The position numbers and the translations under genes are program-made. Positions 7,790-27,305 of a stretch of DNA of 30,247 nucleotides are shown here, in pieces (within the stretch, counting starts at the first letter, position 1; each line of letters opens with the position of its first letter). The notes beneath the pieces were generated by a model, which saw only the letters and a list, made by a program, of their open reading frames with translations, did no database searches and was not told the DNA's origin. The stretch lies in IMG/VR virus record IMGVR_UViG_3300027861_000142, positions 1 to 30,247 of that record; one strand, 5' to 3'. The stretch is from a virus.

Positions 7790-9271
7790 TTAGCAATAAT
7801 CTTGGGATCTGGTGGTGATAACCTCTTCTAAAAAGTTCTCAGCTATTGCGGTTAATACGTCAGGTGCATCATCATGGTCATTTGCTCTGAATAACTTCTT
7901 GAATTTAATTACGTCTTTGTAAAAGTCTGGCCACTTGGACTCCCAACCAATAGGCATTATTATACGCTCTTGTACTGTCGCACTATTTGAGATGATGCGA
8001 GCCTCTTTGTTTTCAGACTGGTGATACCAATCAACAACACATTGTTTATTGAAATAATCACATTTAAGTAAATCCTTTACTTTCCTAGCAAAGTTCTTAC
8101 CACCATTATTACTTTCTATGTCTGACTTTCTAACACCACCATCATGTAGCATTTTGGCGGTCAAAGGTTCTGTTTCTTCCATTCCTTTCTGAGTATAAAT
8201 AACATCCTTAACATATGCATAACCGCTTTTTGACTCATCCCAGTTTACAGAACATAGGTAATCATCTCCTGCATCCGCTGTGTCTGTGTTATTGCGTTTA
8301 ATTAATATGTCATCTGGTAACTTCTTATATGTTTGAAATCCGTTAGAATAAAGCAACCCTTCTTTATTACTTGGGTTTCCCTGATGTAATGAATCAAACA
8401 TCAATGGGTCTTTAGCTCTGGAACGCTCTAATTTAGGCAGTGAGTGCCGTTCTGGCCATAACGCTTCACCTATCTCGCGTTTATCTATCTCTGTTGGCTC
8501 TGTTGTCTTGATAGCTTCAAAATTAATCTTAAACCAAACGTCTTGATTTTTATATTCTTCAATATCATCAAGAGACTTTATATTTATCACTGGCTCTTTA
8601 GATTCTACAAAGCCAACCAAATCATCTTCATCCCATCTCGTAAATACTATTAATTGCTGTGAGTCGTTGTGCAGCCGTGTGTCTGCTGTGGAGTTGTACC
8701 AATCTTTTACATTCTCACGTATTAATGGAGACTTAGCCTCTTTCCAGTCTTTGTATAAATCATCCATTAAAAGAACATCAACAGGATCACCAGTTAAGCC
8801 ACCTTGGTAACCTACGTTCTTTAAGAATCCATCATGTCCGACTATCTCCATTTCTTCGGCTGTATTAGAATACTGTGATTGTTTCCCTTCTGGGGTTAAT
8901 CGCCCAAATATTTTAATATACTTTTCATCAGCCAATAATTGCTTTACTTTTCGCCCAAACTTACGTGCTTTTGTGGCTGAATAACAAACGGTTGCTATTT
9001 TTAAATCGGGATCGCGTCCAATCATCATAGCAGGAACATTAATGGATGAGCCTTGAGATTTACCGTGTTGAGGTGGACATGATATAATAAGTTTCTTGAT
9101 ACGTCCATCAACGAACGCATCAAGAATAGAGTAATAGTTTTTATGGAATTGTGTATCTTGGAATTTTGGCATTGTGTAACGCGCAAAGGCTAAATTATAA
9201 TCCTTTGCATATTTAATACGCTCATCATCCTGTATCTTTTGAGCTTCTACTATTTTACTTGTAGTCGTCAA
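7790..9271 (-). CDS. terL: Terminase large subunit
   Basis: 493 aa, full length. The ATPase half has Walker A PPQHGKS (66-72), Walker B VLLMDD (166-171) and the motif VFTRWDEDDL (209-218). The nuclease half has acidic residues in NNTDTADAGDD (328-337), ESNNGG (386-391) and HDDAPDVLT (466-474), the RNase H-like site that cuts the concatemer. It pumps DNA into the procapsid through the portal. The start overlaps the small-subunit stop by 17 nt. The nearest downstream gene set is separated by its own promoter. Confidence 0.95.
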   Translation of the reverse strand: MTTTSKIVEAQKIQDDERIKYAKDYNLAFARYTMPKFQDTQFHKNYYSILDAFVDGRIKKLIISCPPQHGKSQGSSINVPAMMIGRDPDLKIATVCYSATKARKFGRKVKQLLADEKYIKIFGRLTPEGKQSQYSNTAEEMEIVGHDGFLKNVGYQGGLTGDPVDVLLMDDLYKDWKEAKSPLIRENVKDWYNSTADTRLHNDSQQLIVFTRWDEDDLVGFVESKEPVINIKSLDDIEEYKNQDVWFKINFEAIKTTEPTEIDKREIGEALWPERHSLPKLERSRAKDPLMFDSLHQGNPSNKEGLLYSNGFQTYKKLPDDILIKRNNTDTADAGDDYLCSVNWDESKSGYAYVKDVIYTQKGMEETEPLTAKMLHDGGVRKSDIESNNGGKNFARKVKDLLKCDYFNKQCVVDWYHQSENKEARIISNSATVQERIIMPIGWESKWPDFYKDVIKFKKLFRANDHDDAPDVLTAIAENFLEEVITTRSQDYC

Positions 9272-10032: not shown

Positions 10033-10256
10033 ACCTCATCCCCACACACAGGACACTCGAATTTATTAGCATTAAAACGTGCTGTCATTATCCAAAGCGG
10101 CACAACAACAATCGTACTCAACCAAAATGTAAGCAGACCAGATATAACCCACATCAGCAAAAAGCCAAAGTGAGCCGCACAACCTATATTTGGCTCATCC
10201 CTCACAGCTCTTACATTGCGATCACAATATTCGCACCATCTTTGTTCAGTTGACAT
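10029..10256 (-). CDS. Membrane protein with split CxxC zinc ribbon (LITAF-like layout), 75 aa
   Basis: CEYC (8-11) near the N-terminus and CPVC (68-71) near the C-terminus flank a hydrophobic stretch (about 25-58, one or two membrane segments, HFGFLLMWVISGLLTFWL then STIVVVPLWIM). CxxC-hydrophobic-CxxC is the layout of LITAF-type zinc ribbons that sit on a membrane surface. Start TAATG overlaps the preceding stop, with GGTGAATA upstream. Function unknown; membrane tethering is inferred. Confidence 0.65.
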   Translation of the reverse strand: MSTEQRWCEYCDRNVRAVRDEPNIGCAAHFGFLLMWVISGLLTFWLSTIVVVPLWIMTARFNANKFECPVCGDEV

Positions 10257-11131
10257 TATTCACCAACCTTGGTAATATTATAACAAAATTCCTGCGCTCT
10301 CTTTTCCTGCTCCTCGAAGAACTCATGCATCCCGTTTATCCTGTCATAACAATCCTCAAGCTCTTGCTCTAGCTCTTTGATTCTGATTTGCTCTTGGGTT
10401 TCTTGAGGCTTAATGCGGTAAACAAGAATATCAACATCTTTAATAGTTGTCATGTGGTGTATAAACTCGGTTAAATCGCTATGTTGAATTGGTAACCATT
10501 CTTCATGATGATTATTATACTCAATGTTTTCAAAATCAGATTCTGTTAATTCGTTTAATGTTTTTCCATCAATCAAATAGTCATCATACCCATCACCATT
10601 CCACTTCTTACCATTCTTCATCTCTTCAAATTTGAGCTGTTTGATTTGGTCTGGTGTGGCTTTTATTATATCGTACTCAGCTATCCATCTGTTAACTTTA
10701 AAGTCAAATTGACTCAAGCTGTTAACTCTTGATAATCCATGAAATACACCTTCTTTAGTTGGGTCACCAAGCCTTCCGAAAACATTAGTATTGTCACAAT
10801 ACCCCACCACGTCCCCACGCTTAAACTTAGGCTTAACGCTATCAAGCTCTTCTTGGGTTGCAGGGCGGAAAATCTTAGAGTATGAACCAAATGAACACTC
10901 GCCAAGATACTGTCTTATTTGTGGATTTTTTGTGCAATCATCAGAATAATACCACTTCCCCTCTTTCAGCTTTAGGCGGTAGGCTATAGAATTATATATT
11001 CTACTAAACTTTACGGCAGGATCCCATTTTTCATCGAATGCAATTAAATCCGACAATAGTTCACTCCTAAATAACTCCTGCTCTTCATCACTCAACAATC
11101 CAAACGGTACTTTATTTGTTAACATGTTCAT
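10256..11131 (-). CDS. Hypothetical protein, 291 aa, under kissing-loop leader control
   Basis: Starts MNMLTNKVPFGLLSDEEQEL. The N-terminal half has repeated small beta-type segments (WYYSDDC, KIFRPATQEELDSVKPKFKRGDVVGY). The middle is acidic and the C-terminal 40 residues form a coiled coil (IRIKELEQELEDCYDRING). No enzyme motif seen. ATG 11131 lies 8 nt after AAGGAG, which is inside hairpin H3 of the upstream leader. Its stop overlaps the LITAF-like gene, so the leader also governs the two membrane genes. Function unknown. Confidence 0.7.
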   Translation of the reverse strand: MNMLTNKVPFGLLSDEEQELFRSELLSDLIAFDEKWDPAVKFSRIYNSIAYRLKLKEGKWYYSDDCTKNPQIRQYLGECSFGSYSKIFRPATQEELDSVKPKFKRGDVVGYCDNTNVFGRLGDPTKEGVFHGLSRVNSLSQFDFKVNRWIAEYDIIKATPDQIKQLKFEEMKNGKKWNGDGYDDYLIDGKTLNELTESDFENIEYNNHHEEWLPIQHSDLTEFIHHMTTIKDVDILVYRIKPQETQEQIRIKELEQELEDCYDRINGMHEFFEEQEKRAQEFCYNITKVGE

Positions 11132-11137
11132 TTTTCT

Positions 11138-11254
11138 AACTCCTTCACCTAGTTAATTAAAAAGCCCGCTTACATCTAATCGAGGTGAAGTCGACTAGCG
11201 CAAACGGGCTAAACTCAAATATCTTATTCAGCCCTTCACCTGCTGTTATTATCT
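11138..11254 (-). promoter_or_regulatory. Three-hairpin leader with complementary loops (module 2)
   Basis: From the expected transcript start near 11254. H1 is CAGC[AGGTGAAGG]GCTG (11245-11229). H2 is CTAGTCGA[CTTCACC]TCGATTAG (11198-11176), inside the terminator stem AGCCCG/CGGGCT. H3 is AACT[AGGTGAAGG]AGTT (11154-11138), which holds the Shine-Dalgarno. The 9-nt loops of H1 and H3 are identical and the H2 loop is their perfect 7-nt complement. GGGCT just after the H1 loop can also pair with AGCCC of the terminator as an antiterminator. Seen in sequence; folding not computed. Confidence 0.75.
11158..11210 (-). terminator. Leader terminator of module 2
   Basis: AGCCCG (11210-11205) and CGGGCT (11168-11163) form the outer stem around H2, followed by TTTTTAATT on the minus strand. 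It sits between promoter 11261-11289 and the ribosome site of the gene at 11131, so it must act by attenuation. Confidence 0.75.
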
Positions 11255-11260
11255 TCTACT

Positions 11261-11289
11261 AGCTTACATTGTTTACTAACTATTGTCAA
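11261..11289 (-). promoter_or_regulatory. Promoter for leader module 2
   Basis: TTGACA (11289-11284), 17-nt spacer, TAAGCT (11266-11261). The spacer end TAAACAATGTA matches the early leftward promoter at 24109-24137 (AAACAATGTATAA). It overlaps the 3' end of the rusA gene. Confidence 0.6.
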
Positions 11290-12168: not shown

Positions 12169-12648
12169 CTATCCTAAAACAGGCTTGTTGTAGTGAGTTT
12201 CTACAGCTTTCTCCCTGGCCTTTATAGCCTCTTCTTTTGAACTAAAAGCTCCAAGGTGGATATTCTTTCCATTTAGGGTTATTCCTGCCTTCCATTTCTT
12301 GATGGCCTTAGGGTAGAAATACACGCCAGTAACTCCAGTTGTGTTTGACTTGTACTTAATCTTATTGAACATATTACCTTGATGAGTTGTGTTCTCTAGG
12401 TTGGACTTCTGGTTGTTAAGTGTGTTGTGATCTAAATGATCTACTACAAGTCCACTTGGTGTCCTCATCACTCTTCTATGCATTCTCTCTTGCGTCCAGT
12501 TGCCATCTTTATCTTTAACTGTCCTTCTCGCATAAAAAGATAAACTTTTATCACACTTGTAAGCGTGCCATTTGTGTTTGTTTAATTCCTCAAAATCCTC
12601 ATCGTCGACTAATGCAAATTTACATTGCGTTAACTTAATCTTCTTCAT
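12169..12648 (-). CDS. HNH homing-type endonuclease with AP2 DNA-binding domain
   Basis: 159 aa. The HNH core VVDHLDHNTLNNQKSNL (68-84) gives H71, H74, N75 and N78/N79. It is followed by an AP2/ERF-like domain TGVTGVYFYPKAIKKWKAGI (104-123) and LGAFSSKEEAIKAREKA (132-148). These are free-standing homing endonucleases common in phages. The start MKKIKLTQ is chosen because GGAGTACCAGTCT precedes ATG 12648; the ORF is open to 12684. It has its own promoter and an attenuator leader whose third hairpin contains this ribosome site. It sits between a YopX gene and a DUF1737 gene, like an inserted cassette. Confidence 0.9.
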   Translation of the reverse strand: MKKIKLTQCKFALVDDEDFEELNKHKWHAYKCDKSLSFYARRTVKDKDGNWTQERMHRRVMRTPSGLVVDHLDHNTLNNQKSNLENTTHQGNMFNKIKYKSNTTGVTGVYFYPKAIKKWKAGITLNGKNIHLGAFSSKEEAIKAREKAVETHYNKPVLG

Positions 12649-12749
12649 AGACTGGTACTCCATAATAAAAAAGGGTCTCCGCATTGAATAGTACCAGTAT
12701 TCAACACAAAGACCCTCAAATTATAAACATCGTCGTCTCTGGTACAGAC
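12647..12749 (-). promoter_or_regulatory. Three-hairpin leader with complementary loops (module 3)
   Basis: H1 is GTCT[GTACCAG]AGAC (12749-12735), right at the expected transcript start. H2 is TTGAATA[CTGGTAC]TATTCAA (12704-12684) within the terminator. H3 is ATGGA[GTACCAG]TCTAT (12663-12647), spanning the Shine-Dalgarno and the first two bases of the HNH start codon. Loops of H1 and H3 are identical and exactly complementary to the 7-nt H2 loop. Same design as 11138-11254 with unrelated sequence. Confidence 0.75.
12667..12716 (-). terminator. Leader terminator of module 3
   Basis: AGGGTCT (12716-12710) pairs with AGACCCT (12678-12672) around hairpin H2, then TTTTTT on the minus strand. The HNH ribosome site starts only a few bases later, so read-through is required for expression. 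Confidence 0.8.
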
Positions 12750-12755
12750 ATTTAT

Positions 12756-12783
12756 ATAATAACATTGTTTTAATTATATTCAA
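12756..12783 (-). promoter_or_regulatory. Promoter for HNH leader, extended -10
   Basis: TTGAAT (12783-12778), 16-nt spacer ending TGT, TATTAT (12761-12756). The spacer includes TAAAACAATGT, similar to the promoters at 11261 and 24109. Confidence 0.6.
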
Positions 12784-12871: not shown

Positions 12872-13291
12872 TTACGATTCGTATATGTTTCCGATCACTT
12901 CAACTTCAAAAACAGCACACATATTATTTTCATCAAAACAACAAAGATAGCAGTCATTATTGCAACCCGTCGTTACCTCAAACATATAATCATTGAACTC
13001 AACAACACCATCAAACTCCTTTTCTCTTGATTCTGAAATCTCTAGAACATGAACTTTATCGCCCTCAAAAATAAGAGTACCGTCTTTATCCTTTAATCCA
13101 GTGCATTGACCTACAGTCTTTGGCTCAACTGAATAAGCCGTTAACACATTCTCTCTGTAGTTATTTTCGAGTTCTGTTAGCTTAGATTCAAACACATTTA
13201 TAAAAGAATCGTCTTCATGCCAATTATAGAATCCAGTGCGCCATTCACCAGTTTCTATGTCTCGACCTCTGAATGTCAGTCTATCTTTCAT
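12872..13291 (-). CDS. YopX-family protein (139 aa)
   Basis: Starts MKDRLTFRGRDIETGEWRTG. The YopX signature is clear: F-R-G/A-x-D/N-x-x-x-x-x-W near the N-terminus, then VGQCTGLKDKDGTLIFEGDK (about 80-99) and the C-terminal FEVEVIGNIYE. YopX proteins are common in phage early regions with no established activity. A second copy is at 26387-26692. It lies downstream of a 200-nt leader with several hairpins; the ribosome site (ATGAGAAAAT) is weak and next to a GTCCG/CGGAC hairpin, so translation may be controlled. Confidence 0.85.
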   Translation of the reverse strand: MKDRLTFRGRDIETGEWRTGFYNWHEDDSFINVFESKLTELENNYRENVLTAYSVEPKTVGQCTGLKDKDGTLIFEGDKVHVLEISESREKEFDGVVEFNDYMFEVTTGCNNDCYLCCFDENNMCAVFEVEVIGNIYES

Positions 13292-13491
13292 ATTTTCTCA
13301 TTGTCCGAAATACGGACGTAATTAATTAAAAACAAATTCCACCGCGCCAGTGCTCATCTCAATGTGTTAGATTATCGCGATTTCCTTTGAGTTTTCGCTT
13401 CCCTGCGTGAATTAACAAATCAATAGGGGTTTGATTATGCCAGTAGTAGAAATACTGGCAACTATGCAGGGTTACAAAAGTTTATGTTAGT
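13292..13491 (-). other. Structured 200-nt leader upstream of yopX-like gene
   Basis: No convincing protein gene. Minus-strand pairings: CCCTGC...GCAGGG encloses GCCAGTA[TTTCTAC]TACTGGC and AATCAA[ACCCCTA]TTGATT, a possible three-way junction. Then come GCGA...TCGC and GTCCG[TATTT]CGGAC just before the ribosome site. A second ACTGGC (in GCACTGGCGC) could compete for the GCCAGT arm. I do not recognise a known riboswitch. Confidence 0.45.
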
Positions 13492-26148: not shown

Positions 26149-26394
26149 ATGTCAAAACCATACAAAACCAAGCCCCACAAATGCCGCGACTGTGGAACGA
26201 CTAAACCTGCTGATTTTAAGCATAACAGGAAGAGCCAATGTTATACCTGCTACAAGAAGAGCCAATGCAAAGGAACTGCTCATGTTGAGGCTTATAAGGT
26301 AATGAGCACGGATGAGCAAAAAGAATTCGGAGACAATGCGACTAAGGTAATGCGTGAAAATTTAAGAATCAGAAGGGAGTTGCTTTATGGATAA
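26149..26394 (+). CDS. Zinc-ribbon protein, 81 aa
   Basis: MSKPYKTKPHKCRDCGTTKP: C12/C15, then SQCYTCYKKSQC (C31, C34) form a ribbon like that of the HNH and 68-aa proteins (K-C-x-x-C-x-x-x-K-x-x-x-x-F). The C-terminus is a charged helix. The start is chosen for TGGAGATTTAAAA; the open frame begins earlier inside the hairpin. Likely nucleic-acid binding. Confidence 0.65.
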   Translation: MSKPYKTKPHKCRDCGTTKPADFKHNRKSQCYTCYKKSQCKGTAHVEAYKVMSTDEQKEFGDNATKVMRENLRIRRELLYG

Positions 26395-26692
26395 GTTTAA
26401 ATTTAGAGCATGGAATAATGAGTTAAAAAGTTACGGATATTTTAATATAGGTGGACTACCTAAATGGAAATCAGTAACAAGAGGCAATATGACTTATAAT
26501 TATAGCGGTTTAAATTGTGCTGATATTGTTGAGCAGTCAACAGGATTAAAAGATAAGAATGGAAAGTTGTACTACGAGGGCGACAAATATATAGGATGTG
26601 ATGGTGAGTTATATATCATAGATGACATACATGGTTTTTGTTGTTTTGAGGATGCTGAATCGTGCGAAATAATAGGAAATATCCATGAATAA
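26387..26692 (+). CDS. YopX-family protein, second copy (101 aa)
   Basis: MDKFKFRAWNNELKSYGYFN, then VEQSTGLKDKNGKLYYEGDK (about 50-70) and the ending CEIIGNIHE are diagnostic of YopX. Smaller than the copy at 12872-13291 because of a shorter middle part. AGAAGGGAGTTGCTTT precedes the ATG, which overlaps the zinc-ribbon gene by 8 nt. Confidence 0.85.
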   Translation: MDKFKFRAWNNELKSYGYFNIGGLPKWKSVTRGNMTYNYSGLNCADIVEQSTGLKDKNGKLYYEGDKYIGCDGELYIIDDIHGFCCFEDAESCEIIGNIHE

Positions 26693-27274: not shown

Positions 27275-27305
27275 AAAAAAGCCCGTAGCGTTTAAACTAC
27301 GGGCT
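27275..27305 (-). terminator. Terminator between tail and early blocks
   Basis: AGCCCGTAG/CTACGGGCT with an 8-nt loop. On the minus strand it runs into TTTTTTG, stopping transcription from the tail genes. On the plus strand only GAATTTTAG follows, so it may also weakly end the rightward block. Confidence 0.85.

Follow-up and report, generated by a model that had tools for sequence, protein, structure and literature searches.

Phages that control genes by antisense RNA usually rely on extended pairing, or encode the antisense RNA in a gene of its own. In the immunity system of phage P4, the CI RNA pairs with seqA upstream and with seqC downstream and thereby forces termination (PMC4825925). 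The same source describes IsrK of Gifsy-1: one promoter gives rise to a short terminated RNA and to a translationally inactive long mRNA, and the read-through mRNA is itself the target on which the terminated leader acts in trans (PMC4825925). In pT181-type attenuators an RNA-RNA contact governs the terminator and the ribosome site together, and orthogonal variants have been obtained by altering a kissing hairpin (PMC5435934). The terminator loop of Listeria LhrC takes part in the binding that blocks the SD (PMC4132741), and for the T4 homing endonuclease genes I-TevI, mobE and segB a ribosome-site hairpin over the SD is established (PMC2988022). IsrK, pT181, LhrC and the T4 endonuclease hairpins each have one part in common with the leaders described below, the closest parallel to which is, by analogy, phage P4 immunity (CI RNA, seqA-seqB-seqC, timm).

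The leaders are located in a viral record of 30,247 bases (IMG/VR IMGVR_UViG_3300027861_000142), the whole of which was analyzed and is referred to as the window. Two unrelated genes of this uncultured phage each have a layout of three hairpins (H1, H2 and H3) upstream of them, in both cases on the minus strand. Leader 1 (12749-12647) is located upstream of a gene for an HNH endonuclease, and leader 2 (11245-11138) before an orphan gene encoding a protein of 291 aa. The predicted sigma-70 promoter of leader 1 (minus strand, 12756-12783; TTGAAT-16-TATTAT) is a consensus match only, with 9 of 12 matching positions and a TG ahead of the -10 (extended -10), and it would place the transcript start near 12749, which is the first base of H1. 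Following H1 (12735-12749; GTCT[GTACCAG]AGAC), H2 (12671-12717) has the form of an intrinsic terminator, with 20 pairs, a 7-nt loop (CTGGTAC) and then a T-tract. H3 (12647-12663; ATGGA[GTACCAG]TCTAT) lies over the SD (GGAG) and the start codon (ATG 12648-12646, with GGAG upstream), so that the SD of an endonuclease gene is covered by a hairpin here, as it is in T4. The three hairpins, which a sequence-only reading had placed at 12647-12783, were all found there on the minus strand, with the claimed loop identity (7/7) and loop complementarity (7/7), and the complementarity between H2 and H3 reaches 9 nt. The word GTACCAG occurs three times in the window when both strands are counted, always within leader 1. 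A multi-target sRNA was rejected as a candidate, the window having no GTACCAG outside leader 1, and so was an insertion with target duplication, which leaves the complement in the loop unexplained. The fold of leader 1 has a z of -4.4 and its centroid contains H2 and H3. H1 (4-5 bp) is weak and absent from the 121-nt centroid; it is present in the minimum-energy structures of the whole leader and of the ~80-nt RNA.

A frame of 11 codons (ATGTCTGTACCAGAGACGACGATGTTTATAATTTGA) runs on the minus strand from ATG 12751 to TGA 12716 at the foot of H2, which would allow attenuation by a leader peptide, the translation of the frame (12751-12716) setting terminator formation. As the frame has no SD in front of it and no counterpart in leader 2, this explanation is highly improbable and was dropped. 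For an antisense RNA from the opposite strand, as pT181-type attenuators have, the surroundings of leader 1 offer a single promoter-like site on the plus strand (12751-12780, 9/12), which is directed away from the target. The downstream gene (minus strand, 12169-12648) encodes 159 aa from ATG 12648. A program-made list of open reading frames puts its start at 12684, inside the terminator; we favour ATG 12648, with which the homologues and the SD agree. The protein had been read as an HNH-AP2 protein, of which the HNH part stood (Pfam HNH_3, E 2e-7) and the AP2 part did not, no AP2 domain being found by Pfam at E = 1 or better.

In leader 2, all three hairpins are again on the minus strand. The H1 stem CAGC/GCTG (11229-11245) encloses the loop AGGTGAAGG; H2 (11163-11210) has 20 pairs with one bulge, the loop CTTCACC and a T-tract; and in H3 (11138-11154) the stem AACT/AGTT encloses a second AGGTGAAGG, the SD (AAGGAG) lying in loop and stem. 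The order of the loops is thus AGGTGAAGG, CTTCACC, AGGTGAAGG, and H3 sits 6 nt before ATG 11131. The fold has a z of -3.0, with H2 certain and with H1 and H3 weak by energy. A possible promoter (minus strand, 11261-11289) combines a perfect TTGACA (11289-11284) with a weak -10 (TAAGCT, 11266-11261) at a spacer of 17; the consensus scan omits this site and gives TAAACA-16-GATAAT (11275-11248) for leader 2. The downstream gene (minus strand, 10256-11131) encodes a 291-aa protein for which no recognisable relative was found in Pfam, PHROGs or phage records. Its fold is not predictable (model pLDDT 48), and a long C-terminal helix is predicted at low confidence.

Elsewhere in the window, a perfect inverted repeat (GCCAGTA-N7-TACTGGC, 13439-13459) is located upstream of a YopX gene, inside a promoter-like site (minus strand, 13461-13434, 10/12), and may be an operator. 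The phage has two YopX-family genes (12872-13291 and 26387-26692) on opposite strands. At 27289-27295, a terminator-like hairpin that is usable in both directions separates convergent genes.

Comparison of the two leaders revealed near-equal measurements despite no apparent sequence in common. The lengths in leaders 1 and 2 are 15 and 17 nt for H1, 47 and 48 nt for H2, and 17 nt in both for H3, while the linkers measure 17 and 18 nt between H1 and H2, and 7 and 8 nt between H2 and H3. In both leaders the H1 loop equals the H3 loop, the H2 loop is their perfect complement, and H3 overlaps the ribosome site. No terminator in the window is stronger than the H2 hairpins, that of leader 2 ranking first and that of leader 1 second, and their loops are unpaired with a predicted probability of at least 0.9. 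The energies of loop pairing, calculated for duplexes and not for kissing complexes, lie near -9 kcal/mol when 7 bp are counted and between -10.5 and -12.4 kcal/mol when the whole complementary stretch of 8-9 nt is included. Hairpins, complementarity, geometry and the terminator-like form of H2, as well as the unusualness described below, can be seen directly in the DNA. The design had been said to recur at 11138-11254 with other bases, and the hairpins of leader 2 at 11245-11138 bear this out. We infer from the equal spacing of two terminators of 20 bp with 7-nt loops that there is either a shared constraint or a very old duplication, to both of which it points.

The window was scanned for three successive hairpins that carry a word, its complement and the word again, where a T-tract follows the second hairpin and the third lies at a start codon. 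Exactly two matches were obtained, namely leaders 1 and 2. Order-2 Markov shuffling gave on average 0.0095 matches per window over 2000 shuffles (0.05 per window in a first run of 60). Judged by the ungapped score of the scan, a single one of the 2000 had a match whose H2 stem was comparable to the weaker of the two observed, and two matches occurred in none. Other DNA totalling 2.65 Mb contained 349 terminators, none of which had a loop that was neither AT-only nor repeat-derived and that was complementary over at least 7 nt to both sides; one AT-only loop had 7-nt complementarity on both sides, and repeat- or AT-rich loci reached 6/7. Because this DNA had been selected through loop patterns and protein relatives, and not at random, the figure is a background estimate and not a census. 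A further 1.6 Mb of phage DNA, partly overlapping the other DNA examined, contained no case of the layout. A chance origin of the two leaders is excluded, in line with the earlier judgement that two cases in one genome make chance unlikely. Together with the second copy and the matching linkers and stems, these tests also give good support to the proposal that the leaders are RNA control elements whose defining trait is their architecture and not their sequence. They bear as well on the view that an ordinary terminator, insulating the gene from upstream transcription, merely stands next to an ordinary weak ribosome-site hairpin, the loops having no function in pairing. Both terminators are strong, and the homing endonuclease genes of T4-like phages are known to have terminators as well as ribosome-site hairpins (PMC2988022), but a complementarity of 7-9 nt to both sides, found twice, and the common geometry would be left unexplained, so that we regard this view as unlikely.

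We consider it rather probable, judging from the nucleotides, that each leader is a self-contained riboregulator in which an attenuator and a ribosome-site lock use one common kissing address of 7-8 nt. Promoter use, termination, kissing, its action in cis or in trans, and a repressive outcome are the steps that we infer for it. Transcription would begin at or just ahead of H1, and most polymerases would halt at the 20-bp terminator H2, freeing an RNA of ~80-95 nt with H1 and an exposed H2 loop. Read-through transcripts would contain H3, by which the ribosome site would be held. Taking one partner at a time, the H2 loop of the same molecule or of released copies could then lock this site by pairing with the H3 loop, or could pair with H1. 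Being identical in loop sequence, H1 and H3 would compete for H2: H1-H2 kissing would free the ribosome site or slow terminator formation, and H2-H3 kissing would shut off translation. The pairing of H2 with H3 would cover AGUACCAGU, between the SD and the AUG, in leader 1, and AGGUGAAG, overlapping the SD, in leader 2, and the distinct loop words would keep the two modules of the phage apart. The most natural reading of the direction of control is repression that may be relieved by H1. Rough helix lengths suggest that the linker of 17-18 nt is just long enough for H1-H2 kissing in cis. By rough helix geometry an intact H3 would be out of reach of the H2 loop of its own molecule over 7-8 nt; H2-H3 pairing would then occur in trans, by the released RNA, or with H3 opened. 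Points against the riboregulator are this constraint on locking in cis, the weakness of H1 in both leaders and of H3 in leader 2, and that no homologous leader was found.

The identity of the H1 and H3 loops and the position of H3 at the ribosome site would also suit binding of a protein or a small molecule, as by a translational repressor or in a riboswitch, with the complementarity of H2 being secondary. This complementarity is nevertheless perfect in both leaders, and Rfam gave no family at gathering score, with only chance-level matches at permissive thresholds. Nor was a conserved aptamer, as expected of a riboswitch, found: there is no Rfam family and the leaders share no apparent sequence. 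Since the loops of leader 2 differ, a second ligand would be needed as well, and we judge such ligand binding to be improbable.

Returning to the riboregulator, we compared it with P4. In the P4 genome (NC_001609), the corresponding elements are TTCACAGG at 8651, CCTGTGAA at ~8464, a terminator-like hairpin at 8431-8404, and TTCACAGGAGG at 8384 before the ATG. They were found by a separate complementarity search; the triplet scanner does not flag P4, since its spacing is wider than the scanner limits. The order recovered fits the arrangement seqA, CI, seqC described in PMC4825925. P4 and both leaders have a word, a complement, a terminator, and the word at the ribosome site and start codon, the complement being carried by an RNA between two targets. 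In both leaders two copies of the target word flank the complement, the downstream one at the ribosome site, and the terminator between the complement and the downstream target is H2 itself. The P4 spacings of about 188 and 80 nt and the pairing are longer than those in the leaders, and seqB is in a separate processed RNA, whereas in the leaders the complement is the loop of the terminator. The downstream genes differ, and no sequence similarity was detected: blastn against phages gave only chance matches of 31-34 nt, none in P4, and neither blastn nor Rfam related the leaders by sequence to any described family of antisense RNAs or to the immunity regions of the P4 type. As this relationship was not found and the action of the RNA is predicted, we do not class the leaders as members of P4 immunity; by analogy, they resemble a miniature of the P4 plan in which one hairpin provides both the complement and the terminator.

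The matching word order, with a third copy at the ribosome site, and the short H2-H3 linker raise the question whether kissing takes place mainly in trans. The terminated RNA of ~80 nt would then be an antisense immunity RNA like the P4 CI RNA, silencing the same gene on incoming or freshly copied phage genomes. This is a possibility that we hold to be doubtful: the controlled genes (an HNH nuclease and an orphan) are not evident switches of replication or lysis, the open reading frames scanned include no recognisable integrase or repressor, and the P4 CI RNA is processed and has a separate terminator, whereas here loop and terminator are one hairpin.

The other systems differ from the riboregulator in other ways. 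IsrK activates by refolding, whereas the leader loop would block the ribosome site, and the excerpt of its description (PMC4825925) has no loop triplet like that of the leaders. Unlike the leaders, pT181 works through an antiterminator helix and a separate antisense RNA encoded in cis, its ribosome site being part of the terminator stem, and LhrC is an independent multicopy sRNA with a separate mRNA target. For the T4 hairpins, neither a three-way loop complementarity, nor a complementary terminator loop, nor a 5' copy is described (PMC2988022). The T4 systems are further characterised by a late promoter inside the hairpin or right behind it, through which late transcripts avoid the hairpin. 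The combined layout was not found in the literature searched, from which subscription papers were mostly absent, so that this is weak evidence for novelty.

Relatives of the leaders were sought by loops and by proteins. Loop-specific scans of viral contigs gave 62 loci for leader 1, 61 for leader 2 and 23 for SD-type loops, none of them with the hairpins, and that of genome contigs for leader 2 gave at least 120 loci, with the hairpins in none among the matches listed. Against viral contigs, the HNH, 291-aa and portal proteins had no homologue. The layout was present in none of 23 relatives of the terminase (at most 65% identity) and in none of 80 relatives of the helicase-methylase, and was absent from the whole 33-kb record (G005) of the relative that shares most genes. 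Likewise, no such leader precedes the 11 HNH homologues inspected (up to about 43% identical), several of which begin right behind an upstream gene. As these homologues lack such a leader and no relative was found, the layout is a property of this phage and not of the HNH family. The link to homing endonucleases that had been suggested is not supported by these results or by leader 2, which precedes an orphan gene. The absence of relatives is no proof of rarity, because near relatives of the record may be missing from the searched data.

Tentatively, the leaders may represent a new kind of phage riboregulator: a cassette of ~105 nt with a fixed geometry and a freely exchangeable address of 7-8 nt, in which the terminator's own loop is antisense to an upstream decoy and to the ribosome site, and of which mutually orthogonal copies occur in one genome. 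If this is true, an attenuator, an antisense loop, a decoy and a ribosome lock within about 105 nt would correspond in nature to the kissing-loop regulators that have been engineered, and such elements could keep their shape without a conserved sequence, which homology searches would miss.
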